Positions 22,256 to 61,225 of a stretch of 64,000 nt of DNA are shown one piece after another. This DNA is from Bremerella volcania (GTDB lineage: Bacteria > Planctomycetota > Planctomycetia > Pirellulales > Pirellulaceae). The DNA is taken from NCBI RefSeq assembly GCF_007748115.1, contig NZ_CP036289.1, forward strand, positions 372,001 through 436,000, read 5' to 3'. The notes beneath the pieces were generated by a model. The model ran no database searches. It saw only the letters and a program-made list of their open reading frames with translations, and was not told where the DNA came from. Numbering within the stretch: position 1 is the stretch's first letter; the number at the start of each line of letters is the position of its first letter. The translations under genes and the position numbers were made by a program.

Positions 22256-22265
22256 AGGCATCAGC
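22256..22265 (+). repeat. Half of a 10-bp target duplication (AGGCATCAGC)
   Basis: This decamer abuts the left end of IS copy 1. Its partner is not on the other side of this IS but, in inverted form, at 59947-59956 beside IS copy 2. Confidence 0.9.
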
Positions 22266-23524
22266 CACGGCGATTGCGCCATGATGGGTTATCTGCGACA
22301 CTGAGGCAATGGCGGTCAGGCGATTTTGTGACGGAGGTTGTCGCGGCCTGATCCGGTGTTCTCAGGTGCCTTTCTCATGTCGTCACGTTCGCCTGTTTCC
22401 CTTCAAGAGTGCTTTGCCGATCTGACCGATCCGCGGACTCGCAAGGTGACTTATCCGTTAACGAATATCGTGACCATCGCGCTGTGTGCGGTGATGAGTG
22501 GGGCGGATGATTTTGTGGCTATCGCCGACTGGGCCGAGATGAAGAAGGAGTGGCTGGGTAAGTTCCTTGATTTGAGTTCCGGCATCCCTTCGCACGATCG
22601 CTTTAATGCGATCTTGGCTTCGCTGAATCCGGCTGAGTTTGAGAAGTGTTTGCTGACTTGGATCACCGCCTTACACGAAATCACCGACGGGCAGATCATC
22701 GCGATTGACGGCAAGACGCTGCGGCGGAGTTTCGACAAGGCCAGCAGCAAGGCGGCCATTCACATGGTCAGTGCCTGGGCGACTGCCAATCATGTGAGTC
22801 TCGGCCAGGTAGTAACCGACGCGAAGAGCAACGAGATCACCGCCATTCCCAAACTGCTTGAAATCGTCGAGGTTTCCGGCAGTTTAGTGACGATTGACGC
22901 TCAAGGTTGCCAACAGGACATCGCTCAGAAGATCGTCGACCAGGGAGCCGATTATTGCCTGGCCGTGAAGCGCAATCAGCCGACCCTCCACGATTCGATC
23001 GAAGATTTTTTTGTCGCGCAGCAGGAAAGCAATTTCAAGCGAGCCAAAGTACACCGTCACGAAACGCACGAGAAAGGGCATGGTCGCGAGGAGTCGCGTT
23101 CCTATTATATCTGCCCTGTGAACGACGAGATCATCACACGAGATCGTTGGTCGAACTTGAGGGCGATCGGGATGACGATCAATATCGTGAAGCAAGGCGG
23201 GAACGAGACGAGCGAGGTGCGATACTATATCCTGAGCAAGTACCTTTCCGGCAAGCGTTTCGCCGAGGCCGTTCGCGGTCATTGGGGCATTGAAAACAGC
23301 CTGCACTGGCAACTGGACGTGACGTTCGGTGAAGATCAATCTCGCATCCGCAAAGGGCACGCCGACGCCAACTTTAGCCTGCTACGAAGGACGAGCCTGA
23401 GCCTGCTGAAGAACAACAAGACAGCCAAGGTCGGCGTGAAGAACAAACGATTAAAATGCGGCTGGGGCGATGACTACCGCATGGAAGTCCTGCTGGGACG
23501 GTGAGTTATGGTGCAATCGCCGTG
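22266..23524 (+). mobile_element. ISAs1-family insertion sequence, copy 1
   Basis: The element is 1259 bp long. Its ends are imperfect inverted repeats, CACGGCGATTGCGCCAT on the left and the complement of CACGGCGATTGCACCAT on the right. Boundaries were fixed by comparison with copy 2 at 59957-61215, where similarity stops at the same base on both sides. Length, termini and the 10-bp target duplication fit the ISAs1 family. The flanks do not match each other: AGGCATCAGC on the left and CCCGGCATAC on the right. Confidence 0.96.
22377..23504 (+). CDS. ISAs1 family transposase
   Basis: This transposase of 375 residues starts at ATG 22377; the frame extends to a TTG at 22338 directly against GGAGG, too close to be used. 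It has the ISAs1 / H-repeat-associated layout: an N-terminal DUF4338-free helical part (LQECFADLTDPRTRKV), then a DDE core with IIAIDGKTLRRSFDKA (first Asp), VTIDAQGCQQDIA (second Asp) and VRGHWGIENSLHWQLDV (Glu). The sequence is intact and identical to the protein of copy 2, so the element is probably recent and may be active. Its stop codon overlaps a GTG start (GTGA) that reads into the severed membrane-protein fragment. Confidence 0.96.
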   Translation: MSSRSPVSLQECFADLTDPRTRKVTYPLTNIVTIALCAVMSGADDFVAIADWAEMKKEWLGKFLDLSSGIPSHDRFNAILASLNPAEFEKCLLTWITALHEITDGQIIAIDGKTLRRSFDKASSKAAIHMVSAWATANHVSLGQVVTDAKSNEITAIPKLLEIVEVSGSLVTIDAQGCQQDIAQKIVDQGADYCLAVKRNQPTLHDSIEDFFVAQQESNFKRAKVHRHETHEKGHGREESRSYYICPVNDEIITRDRWSNLRAIGMTINIVKQGGNETSEVRYYILSKYLSGKRFAEAVRGHWGIENSLHWQLDVTFGEDQSRIRKGHADANFSLLRRTSLSLLKNNKTAKVGVKNKRLKCGWGDDYRMEVLLGR

Positions 23525-24112
23525 CCCGGCATACTCCAAGGACTCACTTATTTTAGCGTGTTGGCGATGATCGCAGCGGGGTTCACCTATATGAGTCGCA
23601 TGATCATCTCGGCGTTTCGCCGCGAGTCGAGTCCGCGTCAGCGATTTACGATCTTCGGCTTGATGATCGTCACGGCGATTACCGCGGTCTGCCTGGTCGC
23701 CCTCAACCTTTTTCTGGGTTCAGAGAGTAGTCCTTCGGCCTTATTGGTCATCGTGATCTTGATCCTCGTGGGCTTTGCACTGACGGCCCAATGTGCCTCC
23801 GCGTGGTGCCGCACCAAGTGGGAAACGTTGGTGGTAGCCTTGGTGGCCTTGCTCGTGGCGATTCCCGCGGCGCTAGGCGTTCACGTGCTGCTTCACTACG
23901 TCAACAAGTCGCCGACGGAAGCCGGTGACGTCCTGATTCCCATCGGAACCATGGTCTTGTTCATGTGGATGCTCCTCTACCCGCTCTGGTTCGGCTTCTA
24001 CGCATTGGGCTGGACCTTGATCGACCCCAGTTGGAAGTTAGGACCACGCCACGTCGCAGGCCCCAAGGTCGCTGCCCCCGAGGAAGAGTTCGACGTGCTG
24101 ATGGAAGATTGA
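23525..24112 (+). pseudogene. C-terminal half of an IS-split membrane protein gene
   Basis: The first ten bases (CCCGGCATAC) are the target duplication. Reading on, the frame encodes PGILQGLTYFSVLAMIAAG and about 190 further residues with four or five membrane helices, ending in EEEFDVLMED. It aligns with the second half of the intact paralog at 61524-62438 (shared QRFTIFGLM, LYPL, DPSWKL). The first half lies at 61216-61534 on the other strand. Joined at the decamer, 319 + 578 nt give 897 nt, exactly 299 codons including the stop. The fragment might still be translated from GTG 23501 by coupling to the transposase. Confidence 0.88.
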
Positions 24113-24122
24113 CCCACCAGGC

Positions 24123-24638
24123 CTAATCCTCTTCATCATCGTCGTCGTATTCGACATGCCGCTCGCGCCAGTAGTCTTCGTTGGCCAGCACCTCTTCGAT
24201 GATCGATGGCTGACCGAGCGCGGCAAGCTGCGGAACTTTATCGAGTTGATGTTCGGCGTAAACCCCCTCGACGTCGAACTCCTCGGCATCGACGGGAATC
24301 GCCCACCCGTCCAGGTAGACGTACTGCTGACCCTCTTCCAGGTCTTCAGTCATCTGCTTCATGAAGTCGATCCAAAGATCGATGTCTTCGTCGGTCGGTG
24401 GTTCGCTGTAGCGGGTATCGAGATCGAGATGGGCCAGCTCCTCCCACGTCAGATCACAGGGCGCGGCGACGGTAAACGTGTAGGCATGCCGACACTTCGG
24501 GCAAGCAAACAGCCACCCGCAGCCACACCAGGGGCAATCCATCTGGGCCGGTGCCGAGATCCAGCACGGCTCGCATTGGCAGTGAGAAACCAAATCATCG
24601 TTGGCCTTCTTGAGGAAGAGTCCGACCTTTTCACTCAT
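24123..24638 (-). CDS. Zinc-ribbon protein of unknown function
   Basis: The ATG at 24638 has AAGGAT 7 nt upstream and gives 171 residues; the longer frame to 24788 lacks a plausible start. The N-terminus (MSEKVGLFLKKANDDL) is followed by a cysteine-rich cluster at about 22-50 with CQCEPCW, CPWCGCGW and CPKCRH, arranged as paired CxxC zinc knuckles. The middle is acidic (SEPPTDEDIDLWIDFM) and the C-terminus ends in a run of Asp and Glu. There is no signal peptide, so it is cytoplasmic. I do not recognise the family; a role as an adaptor or in nucleic-acid handling is speculation. It is convergent with the severed membrane-protein fragment. Confidence 0.78.
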   Translation of the reverse strand: MSEKVGLFLKKANDDLVSHCQCEPCWISAPAQMDCPWCGCGWLFACPKCRHAYTFTVAAPCDLTWEELAHLDLDTRYSEPPTDEDIDLWIDFMKQMTEDLEEGQQYVYLDGWAIPVDAEEFDVEGVYAEHQLDKVPQLAALGQPSIIEEVLANEDYWRERHVEYDDDDEED

Positions 24639-24932
24639 CGATCGATCCTTGCTGTTGGGGGTGTTCTTCACGTATGGGTTTCGATGGCAAGTGGATCCCA
24701 TCGGAAGATTTATTTCGGTGTACCCTACGCGGAAACGGGCAGCAAGCTTTTTTCTCTTCCCGGAAAAACATGAACCATTTACCAGCAATTTCGTTGAACA
24801 AAGTTTAGGGGAAAGAGATCAAACCTTCGTGAAAGTCTCTTCCCGCCCGATTTTCGCATTTCCCTCCCCCCGACGGCCATGCATAATCGAAAGTTGAATT
24901 CATTTCGGCCTGCTTTGCTTCGTTAGTTTCTT

Positions 24933-26423
24933 ATGTCTCGAATGATTCGAACCCTTACGATTTTCTTCGTTCTGCTACTGCTTCCCGGGCGCTATGCACT
25001 CGCCCAGATGAGCGCCTCGCCGTGGATCATGTCCTCGGACATTAACATCCCCGCCGATCAACAAGCCCAAGTCACCATGGGACCGCCTGGCTGCCCGGTG
25101 ATCGTGGTCAATCGTCAGGCCTGGCACATCAAATCGAAGAAGGTCGTGCAGACGATCCAGGATGGCTGGGAGATCGGCGACTACCGCTGCTTGAGCGCCA
25201 ACGGCAAGTACTTCGCCGCGTTCGAAGGTGGCCATTTCGATCGCGGGAAAGACATCAACGTCTGGAATCTGGTGACCGGCGAGATCGTCGCCACGATCCC
25301 AGGCAAGTCGAGCAGCATCTACCCGGTGATGAAGATCATGTACAACCGCTATCTTTTGGCGGCCCCCGATACCGGCGAGCAACTGACGATCTGGGACTTG
25401 GAACAAAACAAGAAGACGCGCGACGTCTTCGTACGAACGCAAGACGTCAACGAAGGGCAGCTGACCGTTTCCCCCGACGGCAAGTACCTGGCACTGTGCG
25501 AAGGGGACAAGGTCTCGGTCATGACCCTGGCCGATGGCCGCTACGCCGGCAACCTGGCAGCCCCCCTGCGTGATCCGACCAGCAGCACCGGTTGGACCGT
25601 CGGTGCTCGCGACATCAAAGACCTCGAGTTCTCGCCCGATGGACAAGAGATGGCGGCGCTCTACAGCAGCTTCAGCAAGCAGCGACTGGTGGTTTGGAAC
25701 GGCCAGGGGCAAATCACCCATGACATCCCGCTGAACATTCCATACGGCCGCTTGAACGCTTACAGCCTGTCGTGGCTGCCCGATCAAAAAGGATGGATCG
25801 TCGACGGCAACGTCATCGATCGCGAAACCAAGAAGATCACCGTTCAGTTCAAACGCCCCCGCAACGACAAAGACGAGATCGCCGTGCTCGACACGTACTT
25901 CCTGATGGGGCGTTTCGGAGAAGAGGCCGAATCGATCACCATGATCGGTCTTCCGTGGGAATCGATCGACAGTTCGCTGGAAGCCATGAACACGGTCGAC
26001 AATGCGATCCTCGGCCCTGGCGTGAAGCTTTCGCTGTACGTCTACATGCGAGGCCAGCGCGGCGAGTCGATCGACAAAGCCAGGGCAGCCGTCGGCGATG
26101 CGATTGTCGCCCGCATGAAAGCCGACAAGATGCTCTACGCCGCCGACCAGGAGGTCTACTTCCGCTTCAACGCCGAGCCTGCCTCCCCCGAGCATCAGTA
26201 CGGCCAGCTGAAACTGGAACTGCTGATGAAGGGCTCTGACGATCCGATCTGGGCTCATACGATCTCCTCGCGAGCCGCGACCGGCTTCCTGCAAGGTCTC
26301 GACAAGGGGGACATCTCCGACGCCGCGGCTTCGTCCGTCGTGCAGGAAATCAGCCAGGTACAGATCCCCTACTTCATGCCCCGCACGGCTGACTTCCTAC
26401 CACTGCCTTTTGTGGTGCAGTAG
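24933..26423 (+). CDS. Secreted WD40/beta-propeller-like protein
   Basis: This 496-residue protein starts with a signal peptide (MSRMIRTLTIFFVLLLLPG, cleavage near ALAQ). Residues about 50-300 contain weak WD40-like blades with phrases such as CLSANGKYFAAFEG, LTVSPDGKYLALCEGDKV and LEFSPDGQEMAALYS, in which xSPDGxxxA is the usual blade motif. The C-terminal 170 residues do not show blades. Such exported propeller proteins are common in planctomycetes and have no known enzyme activity; they probably bind proteins. It is convergent with epmA across a palindromic repeat. Confidence 0.82.
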   Translation: MSRMIRTLTIFFVLLLLPGRYALAQMSASPWIMSSDINIPADQQAQVTMGPPGCPVIVVNRQAWHIKSKKVVQTIQDGWEIGDYRCLSANGKYFAAFEGGHFDRGKDINVWNLVTGEIVATIPGKSSSIYPVMKIMYNRYLLAAPDTGEQLTIWDLEQNKKTRDVFVRTQDVNEGQLTVSPDGKYLALCEGDKVSVMTLADGRYAGNLAAPLRDPTSSTGWTVGARDIKDLEFSPDGQEMAALYSSFSKQRLVVWNGQGQITHDIPLNIPYGRLNAYSLSWLPDQKGWIVDGNVIDRETKKITVQFKRPRNDKDEIAVLDTYFLMGRFGEEAESITMIGLPWESIDSSLEAMNTVDNAILGPGVKLSLYVYMRGQRGESIDKARAAVGDAIVARMKADKMLYAADQEVYFRFNAEPASPEHQYGQLKLELLMKGSDDPIWAHTISSRAATGFLQGLDKGDISDAAASSVVQEISQVQIPYFMPRTADFLPLPFVVQ

Positions 26424-26432
26424 CCATCTCTG

Positions 26433-26468
26433 GTCCCCTCTCCCCCGCTGACGGTGGAGAGAGGGGAC
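26433..26468. repeat. Dispersed intergenic palindromic repeat, copy 2
   Basis: GTCCCCTCTC and GAGAGGGGAC form a perfect palindrome with a short internal spacer, between two convergent genes. It could stop transcription on both sides but lacks a T-run. Same family as the repeats near 3.3, 27.5, 34.3, 34.45 and 42.2 kb. Confidence 0.75.
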
Positions 26469-26485
26469 AGGAAGAAGAGAGAGCT

Positions 26486-27469
26486 TCACGCCTGTCGTGT
26501 CGGAAACGGGATCACCTCGTCGATTGACTTCGCGCCGATGGCCGCCATCACCAGGCGATCGAGTCCCAACGCGCACCCACTGCATGCTGGCAGCCCGGCG
26601 CGCATGGCCTCGATCAGCTGGCTACTCTCCGGCAGCTGCGGTTTGCCCAGGGTCTGGCGAGCCGCGTTATTCGCCCGATTTCGCTCGACCAGGAGCTCGG
26701 CGTCTAGCAGTTCGTCGTAGCCATTGGCCAACTCCATCCCGTCGACCAGCAGTTCGAAACGACACGCTACCCTCGGATCGGCTTCGTCCAGCCGAGCCAG
26801 GGCCGCTTGCGAGGCGGGGTAGTGATACAAAATCACTGGCTGCTGGAAACCAAGCTTGGGCTGGATCAGCTCGGAAAGAAGTAGTTCCAACAAGCCGTCG
26901 ACGTCGTCACTCATGAATGACGCCGGCACACTGACGTGGTGCTTTTCCGCGACGGCTCGAAGCTGCTGCGAGGTTGCCGTCAGCGGGTCGATGCTGAGGT
27001 GCGTTTGAAACAGCTTCGTGTAGCTGATCATCTCCGCTGGCCCACGCTGGAGGATCGCGACCGCCAAGTCGGAAAGCAGCCGCATCCCGGCCTGCAGGTC
27101 GTCACCGACGCGGTACCACTCGATCAGCGTGAACTCGACGTTATGCTGCGAGCCCGCCTCGGCCAGGCGAAACGCCTTGGTGATCTGAAAAATGGCCTCC
27201 GCTCCGGCCGCCACTAACCGCTTCATGGCGAACTCCGGCGAAGTCTGCAGGTAGTACGGCTCTCCTTCGCTTGGCCTGGCCGGATCCCAGGAGAGCGAAA
27301 CCGGCACGGGATCGAGATGCGTATCGACGACTGTATCCCGCGAAAGCAACGGCGTCTCGACTTCCCAGAACCCCAGCGCGAGAAAAAAGGCCCGCACTGC
27401 CTGGGTGATCTCGTGCCGCCGTTTCAAATTGTCGATCGACGCCGAAGGACGCCAGGTTTCGTTGGCCAT
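26486..27469 (-). CDS. epmA: EF-P lysine aminoacylase EpmA (GenX/PoxA-like)
   Basis: This 327-residue protein is a short class II lysyl-tRNA synthetase paralog without the anticodon-binding domain, the hallmark of EpmA (GenX/PoxA). Motif 2 (FQITKAFRLAEAG then EFTLIEWYRV) and motif 3 (GCALGLDRLVMAAIGAKSID) are intact. EpmA attaches beta-lysine to a conserved lysine of elongation factor P; EpmB normally makes the beta-lysine, and neither EpmB nor EF-P is in this window. The start codon gives the usual family length. Upstream is another copy of the palindromic repeat. Confidence 0.93.
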   Translation of the reverse strand: MANETWRPSASIDNLKRRHEITQAVRAFFLALGFWEVETPLLSRDTVVDTHLDPVPVSLSWDPARPSEGEPYYLQTSPEFAMKRLVAAGAEAIFQITKAFRLAEAGSQHNVEFTLIEWYRVGDDLQAGMRLLSDLAVAILQRGPAEMISYTKLFQTHLSIDPLTATSQQLRAVAEKHHVSVPASFMSDDVDGLLELLLSELIQPKLGFQQPVILYHYPASQAALARLDEADPRVACRFELLVDGMELANGYDELLDAELLVERNRANNAARQTLGKPQLPESSQLIEAMRAGLPACSGCALGLDRLVMAAIGAKSIDEVIPFPTRQA

Positions 27470-27501
27470 GAATCAGGAAGCAATCCGGGGTTAGCCTCTC
27501 T

Positions 27502-27543
27502 CTGGTCCCCCTCGCCCCCGCAGACGGTCGAGAGGGGGACCAG
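27502..27543. repeat. Dispersed intergenic palindromic repeat, copy 3
   Basis: CTGGTCCCCCTC and GAGGGGGACCAG-like arms are separated by a 16-nt spacer (GCCCCCGCAGACGGTC). It lies between the epmA start and the NRDE terminator. Confidence 0.7.
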
Positions 27544-27551
27544 ATGTTCAT

Positions 27552-27591
27552 AAAAAAAAGAGCACATCACGGATGCAATGTGCTCTTTCGA
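27552..27591 (-). terminator. Rho-independent terminator of the NRDE protein gene
   Basis: On the minus strand AAAGAGCACAT pairs with ATGTGCTCTTT and is followed by TTTTTTTT. The stem begins 23 bp past the stop codon of the NRDE gene. Confidence 0.9.
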
Positions 27592-27614
27592 GTGTTTTCA
27601 ATTCGCGTCGCCGA

Positions 27615-28391
27615 CTAGGCTTCGGCTCGGGAAGCTCGGGCTTCGCGGAGACCGCGGCTGAGGATGTCTCTGAGCAGCGGCGAGTAATCTTCGTAGCCAA
27701 CCTTGGTCGGAGGGCCTTCGGTGTATTGGAAGATGGCGTCACGAGGCTTTTTGCCCAGCGAGATTAGCGTGCTGCTGACCGTACCCCATTCCTTCCCTTC
27801 GATCACCATGCCAGGACGACCTTGAGCCGCTGGCGGACGGGCAAAGACCTTGCTGGAAACGGCCAGGAACTTCACGGCCGAATCGAGCGTTTGCAGGGTC
27901 ATCAGGCGATGAGCCAACTGAACGCGTTCGTCTCGCGAATCGTTCAGGTCGTGGCCGCCGATCAGGTTCAGGCCTTCTTCCAGACGCTGAGCGTTGACGT
28001 CGTCGCCGCCATGCACGACCCAACCGCTGTCGGCGTCAGCCATGACGAAGTTGACGCCGTCGTACTGCTCGGACATCAGCCCTTCCATCGCCACTTCCAC
28101 GGCTGCCTGAGCACTGCTGGCCCTAAGCAGTTCGCGGCACAAAAGTCCCCGCGAACGAGGTACCGGTGGACGCTTCATCTTGCGGCGGTTGGTGCATCCG
28201 ACAACGAGGCCGTGCTGATTGACGCCAAGCCAGGTTCCCCCAGCCTGCTGATCAATTCCGCACAACGCTCGCGGCTTCCCGGATTGAATCGAGGGAGCCA
28301 GCGTGGGACGATCGTAAAATTCTTCCCGATTAGCCGCGACAAGAATCGGAGCCTCAGGAACGCTTCGGTATTGGATTGCCAATAGGCACAT
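27615..28391 (-). CDS. NRDE (TANGO2-like) family protein
   Basis: The ATG at 28391 (MCLLAIQYR) matches the typical start of this family, whose N-terminal Cys is conserved, and gives 258 residues. The family motif reads NREEFYDRPT here, a variant of NRDE, at about residues 22-31. Also present are GGTWLGVNQHGLVVGCTNRR and the C-terminal FARPPAAQGRPGM and WGTVSSTLISL blocks. NRDE proteins have the N-terminal nucleophile hydrolase-like fold and are related to eukaryotic TANGO2, linked to heme and lipid handling; no reaction is assigned. There is a strong terminator just after the stop. Confidence 0.92.
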   Translation of the reverse strand: MCLLAIQYRSVPEAPILVAANREEFYDRPTLAPSIQSGKPRALCGIDQQAGGTWLGVNQHGLVVGCTNRRKMKRPPVPRSRGLLCRELLRASSAQAAVEVAMEGLMSEQYDGVNFVMADADSGWVVHGGDDVNAQRLEEGLNLIGGHDLNDSRDERVQLAHRLMTLQTLDSAVKFLAVSSKVFARPPAAQGRPGMVIEGKEWGTVSSTLISLGKKPRDAIFQYTEGPPTKVGYEDYSPLLRDILSRGLREARASRAEA

Positions 28392-29240
28392 ATTGTTAAA
28401 GAGCGGGGCTAGAGGAACGAAAAAAGCAAGTGCCCTGGTCACGCCCCAAGGTCGATCTAATTCCCTTGAGTCTATTCTTTTTTCCCTATTCGGACACCCT
28501 TTAATGGGGGTCGAGTACCTAAATTTTTGTTAAAACAAGTTTCCCCGACGGTAGCTTGAAGGAAGTGTGAAACCAGGGACCAAAAAACGCCCGCTATCCC
28601 CACCTTTAAGGTACACCCTCAATCGGCGGGGGCTTGGTTCAACTTTCCGCAATCGGCAGCCCCATGCCCTAAAACCCCGCATAATCAGCCTTTTCGGCCT
28701 CGTAAACGCTTGCCACGGCTCCTGTTTATCCTCTCTTCGGTTCGCCATCCGCCGGGGTGCTTACCATGAGCAGAAGGTCGCCACGTGAGCGATCGAACGG
28801 GCCATATTGGGATTGCCAGAGCCGACTCGATCGTCGACGACAAGGTGGATATCGGCACCGCTGATTCGTCGGTCCTTCTCCTCGTCAGGACACCCCAGCC
28901 GACGCACCGGTTCAACCGTCATCGGCTGAGCCCAAGGAAAGCTTTCCAGGTGCGAATACCCAGCCAAGCGAACGCTTGTCGCCCATCGTGCGAAATCATT
29001 GCTGGTCCAGTCAGGATCCCCTTAAACCACCGACATGGGTGAAGCGGCGAAAAAATTTCGGTATGATTTGAGACAGGGAATTTGTTTTGGCCCGCTGAGA
29101 AGAGGTTAGCGGCGTGCCGAACCGACGAGAAAACGAAGCGGATTCGCATTGCAGATGCATGGTAAATCATCCGCGGCGCGCGTTCTCTTTTCTATCCTCT
29201 TTTCCATAGCTAATCGGAACAGTAATTCGGGAGTGGTGAT
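28392..29240. other. 849-bp gap with no secure gene
   Basis: No frame here is convincing. A minus-strand frame ending at 28761 reads coding-like from about 28990 (GDPDWTSNDFARWATSVRLA ... HVATFCSW) but lacks a good start and is preceded by a stop; it may be a degraded gene. No tRNA or strong terminator was recognised. Confidence 0.5.
28761..28990 (-). pseudogene. Possible degraded small gene
   Basis: About 76 codons on the minus strand have codon use similar to neighbouring genes and read WTSNDFARWATSVRLAGY through to HVATFCSW before a TAA. A TAA just upstream and the lack of an ATG or ribosome binding site argue that the 5' end is lost. The only in-frame start is TTG 28967 in mid-sequence. 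No family is recognised; it may be noise. Confidence 0.25.
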
Positions 29241-29600
29241 ATGTCCTCAGGCAAGTTTGCCGGAGCGGTCGACTTAAGCGGTCCTGATCGACTGCAAATG
29301 TTCATTCACAAGGTGAGCGATTCTCAAGAGATGTGGGGCCTGTACGTCGACGGCTGGGCCGAAGCAACCGACAAAGACGGCAAGAAGGGCTTGGTCGTCT
29401 GGCCCGATGAACCACATGCCCGCCTTTGCGCTACCGATAAATGGCGACTACACTCCCCTAAGATGATCAAACTCTCCAGCTTCAACGAACGCTGGGTCGA
29501 TAAGCTCGTCCGCATGCGGCTGAAAGTGGCCGTCTTCCCTACCCCATTCGATGGGCCGGTCTTCGTCGATCCGGTGACCTTGCGAGCGGAACTTCTATAA
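29241..29600 (+). CDS. DUF2750 domain protein
   Basis: This 119-residue protein fills a single DUF2750 domain: DRLQMFIHKVSDSQEMWGLY near the start, then LVVWPDEPHARLC and FVDPVTLRAELL at the end. DUF2750 proteins are small, soluble and have no known activity. The start is preceded by GGGAGTGGTGATA, a fair ribosome binding site. The gene stands alone, 120 bp before fabH and in the same orientation; nothing in the context suggests its job. Confidence 0.88.
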   Translation: MSSGKFAGAVDLSGPDRLQMFIHKVSDSQEMWGLYVDGWAEATDKDGKKGLVVWPDEPHARLCATDKWRLHSPKMIKLSSFNERWVDKLVRMRLKVAVFPTPFDGPVFVDPVTLRAELL

Positions 29601-29720
29601 TTCCCTCCCAGGCGTTCTCGCAGATTCGCGTGTCTGGTAACTGAAATAGGCATGAGAACTTGGGGGATTTCTGGTACATTAATCGTTTTCCCGGACGAGC
29701 TTCCCTCACGAAACGAAAGC

Positions 29721-30782
29721 ATGGCGACGGCGCAACCCAATTCCTCTCCCGGTAGTGAAACGACCTCTCCGCGCCCAGTTCCCTCGGGCCGCAGTCACCT
29801 GCGTTCATTGATGGGCTTTCAGGTCCTCGGTACCGGTAGCTACGTGCCTGAGAAGGTCATCCCGAACGAAGACCTCTCGTCGCTCGGGTGCGATCCCGAG
29901 TGGATCATCCAGCGGACCGGCATCCGTGAACGTCGTCACGCCCCGGAAAACATTGCCACCAGCGACATGGCCTATGAAAGCGCCATCGCGGCCATCAAGT
30001 CGGCCGGTATCGAGACCGACGAGATCGATCTGATCGTGGTCGGAACCTTCACGCCCGATTCGGCAACCCCATCGACCGCCTGCCGACTGCAGGAACGGCT
30101 GGGCATTCGCGCGGCGGCCATGGACGTCAGTGCGGCCTGTGCCGGCTTCCTGTACGCGATGATCACGGCGGCCCAGTTCATCAAAACGGGGACCAGCCGC
30201 CGGGCATTGGTCGTCGGTGCCGATCTGCTGTCGCGGATCTCGAACCCCGAAGACAAGAAGACCTATCCCCTGTTCGGCGACGGCGCCGGCGCCGTTATTC
30301 TGGGCCCGGCCAGTGACGATCACGGCATGCTTTCGTACACGCTGGGAAGCGAAGGAGACGGCGGTCCCCTCTTGTGCGTCCCAGGCGGCGGTTCTCGCGA
30401 GCCCCTTACCGAGCAAGGTCTGTCCGAAGGGAAGCAGTACCTCTACATGGATGGCCGCAGCGTCTTTAAGTGGGCGGTGCGTGTGATCGAAGATTCGATC
30501 CGCGACGTGCTGTACGACGCCCACCTCACGCCGGACGACGTCTCGCTCGTTCTGCTGCACCAGGCCAACGTCCGCATCATTGACGCGGCCTGCGAAAACC
30601 TCGGCTTCCCCCGCGAGAAGATGGTGGTCAACTTGGACCAATACGGCAACACGTCGGCTGGCAGTGTCCCGCTTGTGCTCGACGAAGCGATGCAAAAAGG
30701 GCTCATCCACCGCGGCGATAAAATCTTGCTGTGCGGCTTCGGTGCCGGACTGTCGTGGGGGACGACCGTCTTCCAGTGGTAG
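29721..30782 (+). CDS. fabH: 3-oxoacyl-[acyl-carrier-protein] synthase III (FabH)
   Basis: The enzyme starts fatty-acid synthesis by condensing acetyl-CoA with malonyl-ACP. The catalytic triad is present: Cys140 in SAACAGFLYAM, His280 in LLHQANVRIID and Asn310 in YGNTSAGSVPL. The RTGIRERRH segment near the N-terminus is also typical. I use ATG 29721 (353 residues), which leaves a 30-residue Ser/Pro-rich N-terminal extension; ATG 29811 (MGFQVLGTGSYVPEK) would give 323 residues, nearer the usual FabH length, and is a real alternative. No other fab genes are adjacent. A good terminator follows at 30809. Confidence 0.93.
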   Translation: MATAQPNSSPGSETTSPRPVPSGRSHLRSLMGFQVLGTGSYVPEKVIPNEDLSSLGCDPEWIIQRTGIRERRHAPENIATSDMAYESAIAAIKSAGIETDEIDLIVVGTFTPDSATPSTACRLQERLGIRAAAMDVSAACAGFLYAMITAAQFIKTGTSRRALVVGADLLSRISNPEDKKTYPLFGDGAGAVILGPASDDHGMLSYTLGSEGDGGPLLCVPGGGSREPLTEQGLSEGKQYLYMDGRSVFKWAVRVIEDSIRDVLYDAHLTPDDVSLVLLHQANVRIIDAACENLGFPREKMVVNLDQYGNTSAGSVPLVLDEAMQKGLIHRGDKILLCGFGAGLSWGTTVFQW

Positions 30783-30808
30783 GTAACGGATCCACCGCAA
30801 CCACCAAT

Positions 30809-30833
30809 CGGGCATCATGGATGCCCTTTTTTT
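30809..30833 (+). terminator. Rho-independent terminator of fabH
   Basis: GGGCATC and GATGCCC form a stem with a 3-nt loop, followed by TTTTTTTA, 27 bp after the fabH stop. Confidence 0.88.
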
Positions 30834-30986
30834 ATGGTAATGCCTGACACGCTTTCTCTTGCTGAAAACTGAACACTGAAAACTTCTCCTCCCATCCGAT
30901 CCCCAACCTAATCTTTCTCCATCCGCTATTACGCGTTACGATTGCCTTCGAGATTAGCGATTAGAGAAACCTGAGAAGGAACCAAC

Positions 30987-32816
30987 ATGGCCACGACTGC
31001 CAAAGCAGCTAAGAAGTCCGTCAAAAAGCTCCTCACGCGCGACGAGGTCGCCACCGACGATACCTGGGATTTGAGCAGCCTTTATCCCGACGACCAGGCC
31101 TGGGAGAAAGACTTCAAAAAGCTGGCCAAGAAAGAAGAAGGCTTCGACAAGTTTCGCGGCACGCTGGCTACTGGGGCAAAAGAACTGCTGGCCTGTCTTA
31201 AGTTCGACACCGAAGTCGACCGTCTGGGCGAGAAGCTCGGCATTTACGCATTCCTCAAAACGACCGAAGACCAGGCCAACGACGAAAACCAACGCCGCAT
31301 GGCTCGCTTTCAGGCCGTGGCCAGCAAGCTCGGTCAGGCCGCCAGTTACATCGCGCCAGAGATCCAAGCCATTCCCGCCAAGCGTCTGCAGGAACTGATG
31401 GACGATCCGGTCCTCAAAGGCTACCGCCTGGTCTTGGAACGCATGACGCGTTACAAGAAGTACACTCTCGGCAAGAAGGAAGAACGCATCCTCGCCATGC
31501 AAAGCGAAATGGCCGGAGCCGCCGGCAAGGCGTTCCGCCAGCTGTTGGATGCCGACATGAAATTCGGCACCCTCAAAAACGAACATGGGGAAGAGCACGA
31601 ACTGACCAACTCGACCCTGATGGAATTCCTTCTCTCGCCGGAACGCAAGATCCGCAAGAAGGCTTTCGAACAGTACTACCAACAGTTCGAAGGGCACGAA
31701 AACACCCTCGCCGCGACCCTTTCCGGCTCGATCCAGAAAGACGTCTACTATGCCAAGGTCCGCGGCTACGAAAGCGCTCGCGGCCAGGCCCTGTATGCCG
31801 ATAACATTCCCGAGTCGGTTTACGATAACCTGATCGATTCGGTCCACCATCATCTGCCGGCAGTGCATCGCTACTTCGAGCTGCGGCGCCGCAAGATGAA
31901 ACTGAAGGATATCCACCACTACGACACCTACGTGCCGATCTTGAACAACATCAAGAAAAAGCACACGTGGGACGAAGCGGTCGAACTGATCATGAACGCC
32001 ATGATCCCGCTTGGCCCCGAATACTGCGACGTGCTGAAGGATGGCCTCACCAAGGCGCGCTGGTGCGACCGCTACCCCAACGCCGGCAAGCAAAGCGGTG
32101 CATTCAGCTGCGGCAGCTTCGACGCGGCTCCGTTCATTTTGATGAACTACAAAAAGGACGTGCTGGACGACGTGTTCACGCTGGCTCACGAGGCCGGGCA
32201 CTCGATGCACAGCTACTACTCTTCCAAGAGCCAGCCGTACCAGTACTACAACTACGTGATCTTCGTCGCGGAAGTGGCCAGTACGTTCAACGAACAGCTG
32301 CTCAGCCAGCACCTGCAAGAGAACGCCGAAAACGACCTTGAGCGGGCCTACCTCATCAACCGCGACATCGACGCCATCCGCGGCACGATCATTCGCCAGA
32401 CGATGTTCGCCGAGTTCGAGAAGATCACCCACGCGATGTGCGAAGCAGGCGAACCGCTCACGTCGAAGTCTTTCCAAGAGGTCTACCATGGCCTGTTGGA
32501 ACGTTACTTCGGCCCGGAGTTCGTCATCGATCCGCAATTGAAACTGGAATGCCTCCGCATCCCGCACTTCTACCGCGCGTTCTACGTTTACAAGTACGCG
32601 ACCGGCTTGTCGGCGGCGATCGCGTTGAGCATGCGCGTGCTCAACGGCGGCAAGAAGGAGTTGGATGACTATCTCTCCTTCCTCAAAGGGGGCTGCTCGA
32701 AGTACCCGCTGGATCTCTTGCGAGACGCCGGCGTCGATATGGAAAGCCCCAAACCGGTCGATATGGCGCTGAGTCATTTCGACAGCCTGGTCGATCAGTT
32801 GAACGATTTACTGTAA
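30987..32816 (+). CDS. pepF: M3 family oligoendopeptidase F
   Basis: This 609-residue protein is a zinc metallopeptidase of family M3 (PepF type). The zinc site is HEAGH at residues 401-405 (TLAHEAGHSMHS) with the third ligand Glu in the helix VAEVASTFNEQLL. The first third is the oligoendopeptidase N-terminal helical domain (WDLSSLYPDDQAWEKDFKKL). There is no signal peptide, so it is cytosolic, and it probably degrades short peptides. A GAAGGAACCAAC ribosome binding site precedes the ATG. The next gene begins 10 bp after its stop and is likely cotranscribed. Confidence 0.96.
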   Translation: MATTAKAAKKSVKKLLTRDEVATDDTWDLSSLYPDDQAWEKDFKKLAKKEEGFDKFRGTLATGAKELLACLKFDTEVDRLGEKLGIYAFLKTTEDQANDENQRRMARFQAVASKLGQAASYIAPEIQAIPAKRLQELMDDPVLKGYRLVLERMTRYKKYTLGKKEERILAMQSEMAGAAGKAFRQLLDADMKFGTLKNEHGEEHELTNSTLMEFLLSPERKIRKKAFEQYYQQFEGHENTLAATLSGSIQKDVYYAKVRGYESARGQALYADNIPESVYDNLIDSVHHHLPAVHRYFELRRRKMKLKDIHHYDTYVPILNNIKKKHTWDEAVELIMNAMIPLGPEYCDVLKDGLTKARWCDRYPNAGKQSGAFSCGSFDAAPFILMNYKKDVLDDVFTLAHEAGHSMHSYYSSKSQPYQYYNYVIFVAEVASTFNEQLLSQHLQENAENDLERAYLINRDIDAIRGTIIRQTMFAEFEKITHAMCEAGEPLTSKSFQEVYHGLLERYFGPEFVIDPQLKLECLRIPHFYRAFYVYKYATGLSAAIALSMRVLNGGKKELDDYLSFLKGGCSKYPLDLLRDAGVDMESPKPVDMALSHFDSLVDQLNDLL

Positions 32817-32826
32817 GGGGATCTCG

Positions 32827-33600: not shown

Positions 33601-33693
33601 TTAAGTTCCGTTTTCTCTGATTCCCAATTTCGATAGCTTTCTCTAACATCAATCGCTTGATCTCCATGATCTTGTGGGAAGGGAGTCGTCACC

Positions 33694-52291: not shown

Positions 52292-52466
52292 GCTGTTACC
52301 TTCTCTGTCTGTTCTGTTCCGGGGACGAACGGCCAAGGTGGGTCGTGGGGGCCGCTCCAATAGAATCAACCGCGCAAAAGCACGCAGGTGTCGCTCTTCT
52401 CGTCACGATTCTCGCGGAATCTGCAAACTGGTCAAGTAATTCGCAAGCTTACGAATTCAGGTAAGA

Positions 52467-52799
52467 CTAGACCACGACTCCCAAATCGCCAGCACGCTTT
52501 CTGATAGCGGCCTCGAAATAGTAGTAGCGTCGTCCCTTATCGTACTTCCGCGACCACTGAAAGGTCGAGTAAACCAGCTTCAGCTCGAGTTTGTCCTGCT
52601 CGACAAGCTTGACCACCAGAGCAATAAACGCGAATTGCTCGGGAAGACGGGCGTAAAGACCCCGTTCGAGCGTGTCTTGGAGGTTCGCCACTTCGGCTGC
52701 GTCAAGTCGTTGTGGAGCGAGCCAACCTTGCCCCAGCGCATAAGCACCCCCCAGAGCAAAACTGCCGGCAATCCATTTCAGCATTCGACGTCGCATCAT
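52467..52799 (-). CDS. Small membrane-anchored hypothetical protein
   Basis: ATG 52799, with a perfect AAAGGAGG 5 nt upstream, gives 110 residues; a second ATG follows directly. The N-terminus (MLKWIAGSFALGGAYALGQG) is basic and hydrophobic: a signal or anchor. The rest (LYARLPEQFAFIALVVKLVE, then LVYSTFQWSRKYDKGRRYYY) is a helical plus aromatic-basic domain ending AGDLGVVV. I do not recognise the family. It runs in the same direction as the charged-tail protein that follows 175 bp on. Confidence 0.8.
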   Translation of the reverse strand: MMRRRMLKWIAGSFALGGAYALGQGWLAPQRLDAAEVANLQDTLERGLYARLPEQFAFIALVVKLVEQDKLELKLVYSTFQWSRKYDKGRRYYYFEAAIRKRAGDLGVVV

Positions 52800-53195
52800 C
52801 GGCCTCCTTTGGCATCGAGAAAATTCGGGCGTGATACGTATCAAAATTCCTTCCACCGTGGCAAGAGCAACACCCCTTGGATTACCGCTAGCACTGACTT
52901 CAGGCCACATAGCGTGATTCTTAGCACCTTTATCTGAAGTAGAAGTGGCAAAGCTTGACTTTGTATATTGAAAGCGTCATACTGCCGAAAAGGCTTGTTA
53001 TTGAGGGGTTCATCCTAACAGGCCCCTGGTTTGAGGACCGCGCTATCCCCGCAAGCGCTGGCTACCCAGCTTGAGAGAACCTCGTCTCTCATACGTCATC
53101 TCCCACTTGGTGACGCTTTTGGGTTGTCCTACCTCCGCTTGTATACCGTCGCATCGGCGTCGGTATTCGTCCCAATTTGACCAAGGAGCATTCCC
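52800..53195. other. 396-bp divergent intergenic region
   Basis: No gene is seen. A possible plus-strand promoter is TTGACT (52955-52960), 17 bp, CATACT (52978-52983), which could serve the DUF1501 gene with a long leader. The -10 match is modest. Confidence 0.4.
52955..52983 (+). promoter_or_regulatory. Possible sigma70-type promoter for the DUF1501 gene
   Basis: TTGACT and CATACT are separated by 17 bp. Match to consensus is five of six at -35 and four of six at -10. Planctomycete promoters are not well defined, so this is weak evidence. Confidence 0.25.
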
Positions 53196-54671
53196 ATGCT
53201 GGTCATTCCTGGAAGTAAAGCGAAGGACGTCTGCGATTCCCACTTGGGACCAACTCGTCGCGATCTACTGCGCGTTGGCGGTTCTGCCATGCTGGGTCTC
53301 TCGCTTGGGCAAATGCTGAATCTGCAGTCAGGCCAAGCCTTGGCGGCCGAGTCCAACTCGCACGGTGCCAACTTCGGCAAAGCGAAGAGCATCATTCTGG
53401 TCTACCTGCAAGGCGGCCCTAGCCACTTGGACTTGTGGGACCCGAAAGATGACGTACCAGACAACGTGAAGAGCGTGTTCAAGCGAATCGGCAGCAAGGT
53501 GCCTGGCATCGATCTGACCGAGAACATGCCCAAGCTGGCCCAAGAGACGGACAAGCTCACGCTGATTCGCTCAATGAGCTATACCCCGGTCGGCCTGTTT
53601 AATCACACCGCCGCCATCTACCAAATGCATACCGGCTACACAGCCGACAAGGTCAGCCCAAGTGGACAGTTAGAACCGCCCACCCCCAAGGACTTCCCCA
53701 ACTTCGGCTGCAACATCATCAAGTTTAAGCCGCCGGAAGTTCCCATGCTGCCGTTCGTGATGATGCCGCGACCGCTGCAGGAAAGTAACGTCGTCAACAA
53801 GTCGGGCACCGCAGGCTTTCTGGGGCGTGCCTACGATCCGTATTATCTGTTCCCGTCGGGAGATGATATGGACATGAACAAGATGGACCGCATCAATGTT
53901 GACGACCTGAAGCTGCGGCCTGAGATCACCAGCACGCGTCTGGGACGTCGGGCACGCCTGCGAGACATGATCAACGCCGGCATGCCGGCGCTGGACAAAG
54001 CGGTCGAGTCGTACGACCTGGACAAGTACTACGAAACGGCTCTGAACCTGATCTCCAGCGGTCGGGCTCGCGACGCGTTCGATCTTTCCAAAGAAAGCGA
54101 CAAGACCCGCGATCGCTACGGCCGGAACACGTTCGGCCAGAGCTTACTTTTGGCACGCCGCCTGGTCGAAGCGGGTACCCGGGTCGTGGAAGTGATCTGG
54201 CCGAAAGTCGCCAACAGCAACAATCACAGCTGGGATCACCACGTAGATCTGAGCAACCGCATGAAGAACCAGTCGGCACCGATGCTGGACTCCGGTTTGT
54301 CCTCGCTGATCGCCGACCTGGACGACCGAGGCATGCTCGACGAAACGCTGGTCGTTGCCGTCGGTGAGTTTGGCCGTAGCCCACAGCGCGGCGTGAGCAC
54401 CTCGGGCAACAACAACAGCGCCGATGGCCGCGATCATTGGCCTTACTGCTATACGGCTTGCCTGGCTGGTGCTGGGATCGGTCGCGGCAAGGTCTACGGC
54501 GAATCGGACGATACGGCTTCGGCGCCGAAGAACGATCCGGTTCATCCGACCGAATTGTTAGCCACGATGTACCACGCGATCGGCATCGATCCGCAGACGA
54601 TCGTTTACAACCATTTGAATCAGCCCCGCGAGCTAGTGAAGGCCGAAGCCGTTACGGCACTCTTCGGCTAG
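53196..54671 (+). CDS. DUF1501 domain protein with Tat-type signal
   Basis: The ATG has CCAAGGAG 7 nt upstream and gives 491 residues. The N-terminus has a twin-arginine motif ([14 protein letters not shown], Arg21-Arg22) and the mature domain is DUF1501, a sulfatase-related fold, with [17 protein letters not shown] near the start, [20 protein letters not shown] in the middle and [11 protein letters not shown] then [19 protein letters not shown] at the end. In planctomycetes DUF1501 genes normally sit beside a DUF1549/DUF1553 cytochrome-like gene; none is present here, so this is a solitary copy. Substrate unknown. A strong terminator follows. Confidence 0.93.
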
Positions 54672-54718
54672 AACGAACTCCGCCCCATTCTTTTCGACAA
54701 TCCTCCCTTTCCTTTTCA

Positions 54719-54763
54719 CAAAACGGCCTCGGTGATACCCATCCCACCGAGGCCGTTTTATTT
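54719..54763. terminator. Bidirectional terminator between DUF1501 gene and katG
   Basis: AAAACGGCCTCGGT and ACCGAGGCCGTTTT form a 14-bp stem with a 12-nt loop, followed by ATTTTGG on plus and by T-rich sequence (TTTTGTGAAAAGG) on minus. A second hairpin with ACGCGTCC arms lies at 54783-54819, closer to the katG stop. Confidence 0.85.
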
Positions 54764-54847
54764 TGGGGGTCGCGCAAAAGAAAACGCGTCCCACCGCAAA
54801 GCGGCGGCAGGACGCGTCCGGGGGGGATTGCACTCGCGAATTCTCGC

Positions 54848-57738
<2,891 letters not shown>

Positions 57739-59178
57739 ATGCTCCAAAACACATCCGGAAAGCCACTGGATACTCACCAGAAGGCGCTCAGCATCAACCT
57801 GGACAATCGCCGATACGGCACGTTTGCCGAGATTGGTGCCGGCCAGGAAGTCGTCCGCTGGTTTTTCCGCGTCGGGGGTGCAGCCGGAACGATCGCCAAG
57901 AGCATGTCGGCATACGACATGCAGGTCAGCGATGCGATCTACGGACGTGCGAAGCGTTACGTCTGCCGCGAACGTCTGCAGGCGATGCTCGACCAAGAGC
58001 ATGCTTTGAATCTGGAACGTCTGACCGACATTCGGGGCGAGACGAGCACGTTCTTCGCGTTCGCCGATACGGTGAAGGCCCGCGGATACAAAGGGGGCTC
58101 GGAATGTCACGGTTGGATGGGAATCAAGTTCCAAGCCCACCCGCGCGACGACGATAGCCAGATCATCATCCACGTCCGCATGCTCGACAACGAGATGGCC
58201 CTGCAGCAGGAAGCTTTGGGGATCGTCGGCGTGAACCTGGTCTACGCCGCGTTCAACTACCATCACGAACCGGAACTGTTGGTCGACTCGCTGCTGGATG
58301 GTCTTTCGACCTCGCGTATCGAGATCGACATGATCGAGTTCTCCGGCATCGCATTCCGTCGGGTCGACAATCGCCTGATGAGCTTGAAACTGGTGGAACT
58401 GGGCCTGAGCGGGGCGGCCATGTTCGCGGCCAACGGCGAAGTGCTGCAACCGTCCGAGTTCCTTTACAAGAAACCCATTCTGGTCGAGCGTGGCAGCTTC
58501 CGTCCGGTTTGTAACGTGAACCTGGACATGCTCAATTGTGCCCACGAAAAGTTCTCGCAGCTTCCCGACGTCAAAGGGAAAGAGGTGGCTCAGATCATGG
58601 AGATCACCATGCGGAACTTGAAGGCGGAAGGCGAGATCGACCGCCGCGACTTCCTTGCACGTGCCGATGTGATGGCCGCGTGCGGCATGAACGTGCTGAT
58701 CTCCGACTACTTCGAGTACTACCGGTTGGGCGCTTACCTGGCTCGCTGCACCAACGAACACATCGGCGTAGTGATGGGAGCGGCCAGCCTTCGCGAGCTG
58801 TTCGACGAGAAGTATTACACGACGCTCGACGGCGGCATTCTGGAATCGTTCGGACGCCTATTCAAGAACGACCTGAAGATCTACTGCTATCCACTGAGAG
58901 ATCGCGACACTGACGAACTATTAACCTGCGAAACGCTGAACATCAAACCGGAACTCCAAAAGCTCTACCGCTACCTATTGGAGCGGGACGGGATCAGCGA
59001 TCTCGACAACTACAATCCCGACTGTTTGGGTATCTTCTCGCGTGACGTGCTGCGAAAGATTGGCGATTGCGATCCCTCGTGGGAAACGATGGTCCCGCCT
59101 CCCGTGGCCAAGGTGATCAAGGAACGCAAGTTCTTCGACTACCAATGCCCCGATGACGACTCGTGTGCGGTCACGTAG
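57739..59178 (+). CDS. Conserved cytoplasmic protein of unknown function
   Basis: The ATG has GCGGAAG 6 nt upstream and gives 479 residues with no signal peptide or membrane segment. The N-terminal segment YGTFAEIGAGQEVVRWFFR, then TIAKSMSAYDMQVSDAIYG, is strongly conserved in a family I recall from several phyla, which is often misnamed TonB-dependent receptor or nicotinate-nucleotide adenylyltransferase. Nothing here supports either name: no beta-barrel, no HxGH. The middle has ISDYFEYYRLGAYLARCTNE; the C-terminus ends in a short acidic tail. It stands alone, with a perfect terminator behind it. Confidence 0.85.
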   Translation: MLQNTSGKPLDTHQKALSINLDNRRYGTFAEIGAGQEVVRWFFRVGGAAGTIAKSMSAYDMQVSDAIYGRAKRYVCRERLQAMLDQEHALNLERLTDIRGETSTFFAFADTVKARGYKGGSECHGWMGIKFQAHPRDDDSQIIIHVRMLDNEMALQQEALGIVGVNLVYAAFNYHHEPELLVDSLLDGLSTSRIEIDMIEFSGIAFRRVDNRLMSLKLVELGLSGAAMFAANGEVLQPSEFLYKKPILVERGSFRPVCNVNLDMLNCAHEKFSQLPDVKGKEVAQIMEITMRNLKAEGEIDRRDFLARADVMAACGMNVLISDYFEYYRLGAYLARCTNEHIGVVMGAASLRELFDEKYYTTLDGGILESFGRLFKNDLKIYCYPLRDRDTDELLTCETLNIKPELQKLYRYLLERDGISDLDNYNPDCLGIFSRDVLRKIGDCDPSWETMVPPPVAKVIKERKFFDYQCPDDDSCAVT

Positions 59179-59202
59179 TTTCGCTGGCGGCTGATAGAAT
59201 AC

Positions 59203-59238
59203 ACAAAAAGCTCCTTGCCCGCGCAAGGAGCTTTTTTC
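59203..59238 (+). terminator. Rho-independent terminator
   Basis: AAAAAGCTCCTTG and CAAGGAGCTTTTT form a 13-bp stem with a 6-nt loop, followed by TCG. It lies 25 bp past the stop of the conserved gene. Confidence 0.92.
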
Positions 59239-59341
59239 GTTCCTCATGTCTTCTGTTCGACTCGTTTGGCCAAAACGTTTGCAGTGCTTCCCTGTGAAGG
59301 ATAACCTCGTAGAGGGTCAACTCACCTCATGGGGGAATCCA

Positions 59342-59755
59342 ATGTCCATCGATCGCAAAGCGTGCTCGAAAAAGCTTCTCGAATTGTGGGGCGACAACGC
59401 CGTTCACCAAGCGTCGGATTACCTTGCCGACGACTACGTCAATCACCAATTTCCTGACGCAGCCGGTGGCACTTCTTCCAAGTCGCTCAGCGAGTGGAAA
59501 GCCCTCGTCTCTGATTTTCACGAGGGCTTCTCAGACGTAAAGATGGAAGTGCTGTTGCAAGTCGCCGAAGGGGACTATGTCTGCTCGCGTTGGCGGATGA
59601 CGGCAACCAACACCGGCGCGTTCCGCGATGCCAACTCGACCGGCAAGACGACCACCTGGACCGGCGTCCATACCGATCACTACGAGGGTGACAAACTCGT
59701 TGAAAGCTGGGTCGAATGGGACAAGTCGAGTTGGCTCGAAGGGCTAGGCCTTTAA
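59342..59755 (+). CDS. SnoaL-like / ester cyclase family protein
   Basis: ATG 59342 gives 137 residues with GGGGGAATCCA upstream; the longer frame to 59246 overlaps the terminator of the previous gene. It is a single NTF2-like cone fold of the SnoaL/ester cyclase type: CSKKLLELWGDNAVHQASDY, then FHEGFSDVKMEVLLQVAEGD and the closing VHTDHYEGDKLVESWVEWD. Members are mostly of unknown use; a few cyclise polyketides. No polyketide genes lie near. Before the IS-driven inversion it would have been next to the AT-rich FRG cassette. Confidence 0.88.
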   Translation: MSIDRKACSKKLLELWGDNAVHQASDYLADDYVNHQFPDAAGGTSSKSLSEWKALVSDFHEGFSDVKMEVLLQVAEGDYVCSRWRMTATNTGAFRDANSTGKTTTWTGVHTDHYEGDKLVESWVEWDKSSWLEGLGL

Positions 59756-59956
59756 CCGGTCGGCAATTTTACTTCGTCAAAGGTCACGAAACCGATGTGG
59801 CCTTTGCTATTGAGAAAATGCGTTGACCATTGAAGGATCAATATTTCAGTCCTAAATGATCACTCAAATGGATTTACACGCAAGCTTCAACAAATAACAA
59901 TATTACCAATGTCGCAAAATTACATCTGTATTGATATAGCCCACCTGCTGATGCCT
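59756..59956. other. AT-rich intergenic region beside IS copy 2
   Basis: About 200 bp with no gene; a weak hairpin (CAAAGGTCAC/GTGGCCTTTG, 59777-59808) lies just past the SnoaL-like stop. The low GC resembles the FRG cassette, to whose upstream side this stretch was joined before the inversion. Confidence 0.5.
59947..59956 (-). repeat. Partner half of the AGGCATCAGC target duplication
   Basis: Plus strand reads GCTGATGCCT, the complement of AGGCATCAGC found at 22256-22265. It abuts the right end (in IS orientation) of IS copy 2. Confidence 0.9.
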
Positions 59957-61215
59957 CACGGCGATTGCACCATAACTCACCGTCCCAGCAGGACTTCCAT
60001 GCGGTAGTCATCGCCCCAGCCGCATTTTAATCGTTTGTTCTTCACGCCGACCTTGGCTGTCTTGTTGTTCTTCAGCAGGCTCAGGCTCGTCCTTCGTAGC
60101 AGGCTAAAGTTGGCGTCGGCGTGCCCTTTGCGGATGCGAGATTGATCTTCACCGAACGTCACGTCCAGTTGCCAGTGCAGGCTGTTTTCAATGCCCCAAT
60201 GACCGCGAACGGCCTCGGCGAAACGCTTGCCGGAAAGGTACTTGCTCAGGATATAGTATCGCACCTCGCTCGTCTCGTTCCCGCCTTGCTTCACGATATT
60301 GATCGTCATCCCGATCGCCCTCAAGTTCGACCAACGATCTCGTGTGATGATCTCGTCGTTCACAGGGCAGATATAATAGGAACGCGACTCCTCGCGACCA
60401 TGCCCTTTCTCGTGCGTTTCGTGACGGTGTACTTTGGCTCGCTTGAAATTGCTTTCCTGCTGCGCGACAAAAAAATCTTCGATCGAATCGTGGAGGGTCG
60501 GCTGATTGCGCTTCACGGCCAGGCAATAATCGGCTCCCTGGTCGACGATCTTCTGAGCGATGTCCTGTTGGCAACCTTGAGCGTCAATCGTCACTAAACT
60601 GCCGGAAACCTCGACGATTTCAAGCAGTTTGGGAATGGCGGTGATCTCGTTGCTCTTCGCGTCGGTTACTACCTGGCCGAGACTCACATGATTGGCAGTC
60701 GCCCAGGCACTGACCATGTGAATGGCCGCCTTGCTGCTGGCCTTGTCGAAACTCCGCCGCAGCGTCTTGCCGTCAATCGCGATGATCTGCCCGTCGGTGA
60801 TTTCGTGTAAGGCGGTGATCCAAGTCAGCAAACACTTCTCAAACTCAGCCGGATTCAGCGAAGCCAAGATCGCATTAAAGCGATCGTGCGAAGGGATGCC
60901 GGAACTCAAATCAAGGAACTTACCCAGCCACTCCTTCTTCATCTCGGCCCAGTCGGCGATAGCCACAAAATCATCCGCCCCACTCATCACCGCACACAGC
61001 GCGATGGTCACGATATTCGTTAACGGATAAGTCACCTTGCGAGTCCGCGGATCGGTCAGATCGGCAAAGCACTCTTGAAGGGAAACAGGCGAACGTGACG
61101 ACATGAGAAAGGCACCTGAGAACACCGGATCAGGCCGCGACAACCTCCGTCACAAAATCGCCTGACCGCCATTGCCTCAGTGTCGCAGATAACCCATCAT
61201 GGCGCAATCGCCGTG
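59957..61215 (-). mobile_element. ISAs1-family insertion sequence, copy 2
   Basis: The 1259-bp element reads, in inverted orientation, as copy 1 (22266-23524); compared stretches are identical and the proteins match residue for residue. Its termini are the same inverted repeats. Flanks are GCTGATGCCT on the left and GTATGCCGGG on the right, the complements of the decamers that flank copy 1. It splits a membrane-protein gene. Confidence 0.96.
59977..61104 (-). CDS. ISAs1 family transposase
   Basis: Identical in protein sequence to the transposase of copy 1: 375 residues from ATG 61104, with the IIAIDGKTLRRS, VTIDAQGCQQ and RGHWGIENSLHW blocks of the DDE core. No mutation separates the copies, so the second insertion is recent or the copies have been homogenised. 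The stop lies 21 bp inside the right end. Confidence 0.96.
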   Translation of the reverse strand: MSSRSPVSLQECFADLTDPRTRKVTYPLTNIVTIALCAVMSGADDFVAIADWAEMKKEWLGKFLDLSSGIPSHDRFNAILASLNPAEFEKCLLTWITALHEITDGQIIAIDGKTLRRSFDKASSKAAIHMVSAWATANHVSLGQVVTDAKSNEITAIPKLLEIVEVSGSLVTIDAQGCQQDIAQKIVDQGADYCLAVKRNQPTLHDSIEDFFVAQQESNFKRAKVHRHETHEKGHGREESRSYYICPVNDEIITRDRWSNLRAIGMTINIVKQGGNETSEVRYYILSKYLSGKRFAEAVRGHWGIENSLHWQLDVTFGEDQSRIRKGHADANFSLLRRTSLSLLKNNKTAKVGVKNKRLKCGWGDDYRMEVLLGR

Positions 61216-61225
61216 GTATGCCGGG
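61216..61225 (-). repeat. Partner half of the CCCGGCATAC target duplication
   Basis: Plus strand reads GTATGCCGGG, the complement of CCCGGCATAC at 23525-23534. It lies at the left end (in IS orientation) of copy 2 and is part of the split reading frame. Confidence 0.9.

Follow-up and report, generated by a model that had tools for sequence, protein, structure and literature searches.

The window analysed here, a stretch of 64,000 nucleotides corresponding to positions 372001-436000 of a genome assembled as one contig of 6,496,182 bp, carries two copies of an insertion sequence (IS) of 1,259 bp which share 100% identity over their entire length, lie on opposite strands and are separated by 36,432 bp (Table 1). 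The transposase they encode scores 414 bits against NF033564 (transpos_ISAs1), for a cut-off of 70, which places the element in the ISAs1 family; its Pfam matches are PF13808 and PF01609, and the terminal inverted repeats of the IS start at both ends with CACGGCGATTGC. Next to the inner end of the left copy and the outer end of the right copy lie the two halves of one gene. Elsewhere in the window (45884-47581, minus strand) lies a gene whose DNA is internally repetitive (78-84% identity) and whose 565-aa product contains seven YTV repeats (PF07639).

Table 1. Features at the two IS copies, in window positions
Feature	Position	Strand	Remark
Target copy a, AGGCATCAGC	22256..22265	+	Left flank of left IS
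ISAs1-family IS, copy 1, 1,259 bp	22266..23524	+	Transposase NF033564 transpos_ISAs1, E 3.2e-124
DDE transposase gene of copy 1, 388 aa	22338..23504	+	
Target copy t, CCCGGCATAC	23525..23534	+	Right flank of left IS
3' half of split membrane-protein gene (putative)	23525..24112	+	195 aa and stop; residues 3-195 correspond to G002 residues 106-298, 71.5%
Inverted segment, 36,432 bp	23525..59956	-	Orientation relative to its own flanks opposite in four relatives
Target copy a', complement of AGGCATCAGC	59947..59956	-	Left flank of right IS
ISAs1-family IS, copy 2, identical to copy 1	59957..61215	-	
DDE transposase gene of copy 2, 388 aa	59977..61143	-	
Target copy t', complement of CCCGGCATAC	61216..61225	-	Right flank of right IS
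5' half of split membrane-protein gene (putative)	61216..61534	-	Start at 61534; corresponds to G002 residues 1-102, 57.8%

ISAs1-family elements generate target duplications of 8-10 bp. Neither window copy is bordered by a direct duplication, as the two 10-bp flanks of each mismatch at nine of ten positions. When the flanks of one copy are compared with those of the other, they match reciprocally, with no mismatch at either end. Within the window, AGGCATCAGC occurs once per strand (at 22256, with its complement at 59947) and so does CCCGGCATAC (at 23525, with its complement at 61216). Among the 120 pairs that can be formed from the 16 full copies found in the genome, this pair is the sole one with three or fewer flank mismatches at either end, the next-best cross-match being a single end with four mismatches. 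With equal base frequencies, a perfect double match would arise by chance with a probability of about 120 x 4^-20, or 1e-10, and a fortuitous match is ruled out.

Genome-wide, the element was found 16 times in full, with identical sequence, and once in partial form, a count obtained from 40 of 50 first-look candidates and to which more divergent copies may have to be added. A perfect 10-bp direct duplication borders 12 of the 16 full copies, that is, 12 of the 14 located outside the window pair, which argues that simple insertion is the normal mode of this element. The structural claims of the earlier note agree with these data. It had placed the feature at 22256-61225 with an interval of 36.4 kb, which the exact string positions reproduce; the two opposed 1259-bp ISAs1 copies it described are indeed present and identical (22266-23524 on the plus strand, 59957-61215 on the minus strand); its statement that the mismatched flanks of each copy become 10-bp duplications upon inverting the interval is exact, with zero mismatches at both ends; and the 8-10 bp duplications it gave for the family fit the 10 bp observed in 12 of the 16 copies.

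Besides the two window copies, the full copies devoid of a perfect duplication are L012 and L013. For L012 (G000:C1:4492580-4493838), three of ten positions mismatch and the surroundings are otherwise colinear with the same-genus relative G001. For L013 (G000:C1:4126310-4127568), seven of ten positions mismatch; its two flanks match G001 in the same direction about 100 kb apart, and a 10-kb sample of the G001 DNA in between is nearly absent from this genome, so that the site possibly reflects an IS-associated deletion here or an island in G001. A further exchange involving L012 or L013 was rejected, no flank cross-match of theirs being found among the 16 full copies, as was an exchange with the partial copy, whose flanks were compared by eye only. 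The latter (L023, G000:C1:1739991-1740859) is a truncated form of the same IS, 100% identical over bases 391-1259.

In relatives, the closest named carrier of the element is Blastopirellula marina DSM 3645 (80% protein identity). Exact 10-bp duplications border eight of the 12 full-length related copies examined, seven of nine in this strain and one of three in same-genus genomes, and no pair with exchanged flanks was found among these 12 copies. In the same strain, a ninth duplication is present at L083, offset by one extra base, and the flanks of another copy (L086:424-1686) differ at all ten positions.

Gene order was then compared with eight same-genus genomes (G001-G008), using four arms named AL (outer left), AR (inner left), BL (inner right) and BR (outer right). 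For G001, G002, G005 and G008, the comparison was region-wide and retained matches of at least 250 bp with E values of at most 1e-20; the identity of matched blocks to the window was only about 70-94%. All four genomes have the order BR(-) AR(+) ... BL(+) AL(-), with the outer arms reversed relative to the inner segment, which is the order of the window once 23525-59956 is turned back. G008 has its first matches at greater distances from the ISs (24307 and 63208) than G001, G002 and G005 do. Placements in G003, G004, G006 and G007 come from searches in which, for most genomes, only part of the first-look candidates was scored. G003 and G006 have AL(+) BL(-) ... AR(-) on one contig each and are thus un-inverted in three of four arms; among the matches listed, their BR arm has no placement, and for the inner portion of BL (54957-57109) the match is on a different contig. 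In G004 and G007, the arms are spread over several contigs and fit neither order, which makes these two genomes uninformative. G004 resembles the window in that parts of BL and BR share a strand of one contig, yet about 41 kb separates them where the window has them adjoining. For this portion of BR, G005 and G006 have a weaker match on the far side of the region, past its opposite end; it may be a paralogue, and the resemblance was therefore given no weight.

Among the matches listed, the present order of the window was found in none of the eight same-genus genomes. A relative with this order, which the earlier note had named as the observation that would contradict its reading, was thus sought and not encountered, and its central claim of an inversion between the two ISs is supported by the four region-wide comparisons. 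The un-inverted order of these four relatives rules out that the present order is ancestral; the inversion was either derived in the lineage of the window or made in its assembly. The 60 relatives searched include no genome of the same species, judged by identities, and none was found that has both ISs in the un-inverted order, or that combines the old order with an IS at one of the two sites.

The right-hand insertion site has an empty counterpart. In G002, a gap-free alignment of 120 bp spans the joined flanks with one target copy kept. The spacing of matches fits one target copy exactly both in G001 (61 bp, i.e., 43 + 28 - 10) and in G002 (8 bp, i.e., 1 + 17 - 10). The alignment of G001 across this site has two compensating one-base gaps, and that of G005 crosses the join with small gaps near its far end. 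At the left-hand site, about 1.9 kb (window 20521-22265 and 59777-59956) is unmatched in G001, whose matches ending at window 20520 and 59776 overlap by 14 bp. The stretch from 20566 to the left IS was matched only in its own genome (60 relatives, at most five candidates scored in each). Because this DNA is absent in relatives, the order at the left-hand site is drawn from neighbouring genes rather than from a base-exact empty site. An FRG-domain gene (PF08867) is located in the part beside the left IS (20521-22265).

The split gene leads to the same conclusion. Its two halves, which today lie 37 kb apart on opposite strands, match one intact 298-aa protein of G002. The product has no Pfam or NCBIfam match and was judged, from its hydrophobic stretches, to be a probable membrane protein. 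The 3' half has one additional weak match within the G002 protein (E 0.02), which suggests a possible internal likeness within this protein. Both the insertion and the flip have broken the gene, so that simply losing the IS would not bring its halves together again. Collectively, the gene order of relatives and the split gene form evidence independent of the flanks and, at the level of sequence comparison, confirm that the segment was flipped.

An assembly error, in which the true duplications match and identical copies were joined the wrong way round, has to be considered in a genome containing 16 identical copies of 1.26 kb, and the absence of the present order from all eight relatives (0/8) is predicted alike by an assembly flip and a real one. 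A second inverted pair serves here as an internal control. This pair, the closest inverted one in the genome, consists of copies at 2439624 (plus strand) and 2467172 (minus strand), 27.5 kb apart, both with clean 10-bp duplications. On the left side of this pair, the outer arm is colinear with the inner arm in all four relatives (G001, G002, G005, G008). On the right side, the outer arm continues along this contig and strand in G002 and has no colinear match in G001, G005 and G008 among the matches listed; the inner right arm is unmatched in all four relatives among the matches listed. These colinear arms imply that the old order persists at the pair whose duplications are clean, but not at the pair whose duplications are exchanged. 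They also suggest that the assembly was able to resolve an inverted pair at the 27.5-kb scale. Since 12 of the 14 other copies, including this pair, are joined with the right duplications, the repeats were resolved by the data elsewhere. The whole genome being, in addition, in one contig, we regard a misassembly at the window pair as quite unlikely.

Inverted identical repeats are expected to reverse the DNA between them at some rate. The 1,259-bp repeats being still in place, the segment might flip freely, both orientations coexisting in comparable amounts with the assembly showing one of them. A single assembly shows one orientation and carries no information on such a mixture, which the earlier note had offered as an alternative and which goes beyond the evidence; the internal-control pair, the closest of similar kind at 27.5 kb, is found in its old order. 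Free flipping appears very improbable. A programmed switch driven by a site-specific invertase is not favoured either, as the boundaries are exactly at the IS ends and a gene is split by the event. No site-specific recombinase was found among the window proteins run through Pfam or NCBIfam, which represent part of the 153 open reading frames.

The likeliest mechanism, although unproven, is recombination between two earlier insertions. Two copies of a recently spread ISAs1-family element would have inserted independently, in opposed orientation and about 36 kb apart, the left one in a short accessory stretch and the right one inside the membrane-protein gene, each making its own 10-bp duplication. 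Homologous recombination by the RecA pathway would then have crossed over between the identical 1,259-bp copies and flipped the intervening DNA, leaving each IS with one flank from either site. We consider it probable that the 36-kb segment was inverted through this sequence of two independent insertions and a RecA-dependent crossover. A RecA homologue is encoded in the genome (430 bits). We infer both that the insertions were separate and that a crossover, rather than the transposase, made the inversion. The event is likely recent, because no difference has accumulated in the 20 target bases or between the two copies, and the flip should be reversible, as expected from repeats which stay intact and inverted.

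The same flanks could be produced in one step. In this scenario, replicative transposition of a single IS, already bordered by its own duplication, would be aimed in trans at another site, so that the element is duplicated and the intervening DNA inverted. According to the available portions of the sources, intramolecular replicative transposition in trans does invert the DNA between an IS and its target (PMC7986276, PMC5142620), each copy then keeping one original and one target flank (PMC7986276). The flanks observed in the window, with target copies inverted, are those predicted by such an event (PMC7986276; figure legend of PMC5142620), and L012 and L013 lack perfect duplications, as adjacent rearrangements can leave them. 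Nevertheless, 12 of the 16 copies are clean simple insertions, unlike what is expected from mostly unresolved intrachromosomal replication, an argument that bears on the usual route of the element more than on one such event; and what these sources describe, in the parts available, concerns the IS6 family and other replicative elements (PMC7986276, PMC5142620). In the open-licence literature, no paper was found that settles how ISAs1-family elements move; in the accessible text of PMC9330008, the family appears solely in a cited reference. Recombination is preferred, given that simple insertions make up the majority of the copies, and the one-step inversion is deemed unlikely. If true, the one-step route would mean that transposases of this DDE family can invert DNA by themselves, and swapped duplications on IS pairs of other genomes might then record transposition instead of recombination.

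The earlier note had presented the swapped duplications as direct evidence of a recombination-driven inversion. The inversion itself stands; the duplications are not direct proof of recombination, because one intramolecular replicative transposition leaves identical flanks. An inside-end event of a composite pair, as in Tn10, would also produce the exchanged-flank pattern. Flanks thus do not distinguish recombination from replicative transposition, which sets the limit of the method. The locus is a natural and well-supported instance of insertion scars which, by themselves, pointed to an earlier gene order later confirmed by separate evidence, and scanning IS copies for exchanged duplications does find real rearrangements. 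No prior report of this particular inversion was found in the open-licence literature.

The event is a clean example of an already known kind of rearrangement. For IS copies lacking target duplications in laboratory evolution lines, the causes put forward are recombination between ISs, degeneration, or deletion of adjoining DNA (PMC11708052, in part). Copies without duplications, with recombination between ISs among the proposed causes, are common to that study and to the present genome; unlike here, the subject of the paper is deletions and duplications, and its main text does not contain the term "inversion" (PMC11708052). Replicative transposition in trans, as described in the accessible parts of PMC7986276 and PMC5142620, shares with the window pair the flank layout and the inverted IS copies and requires one starting IS and a replicative transposase. 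In contrast to it, most copies here have clean duplications, which argues for ordinary insertion. The same signature is known from the inversions of Aeromonas salmonicida subsp. pectinolytica 34mel, which, in the available part of the report, were found through reciprocal target duplications and backed either by how genes are ordered in a relative or by genes whose two halves now lie far apart (PMC5756416). Those inversions involve the named elements ISAs18, ISAs19 and ISAs27 in another phylum (PMC5756416, in part), while here an ISAs1-family element with 10-bp duplications is involved, probably in a planctomycete. As at the present locus, reciprocal duplications lie on pairs of ISs (27 kb apart with 9 bp in a 34mel example) and support comes from a relative's gene order, with distant gene halves in other 34mel cases (PMC5756416, same part).
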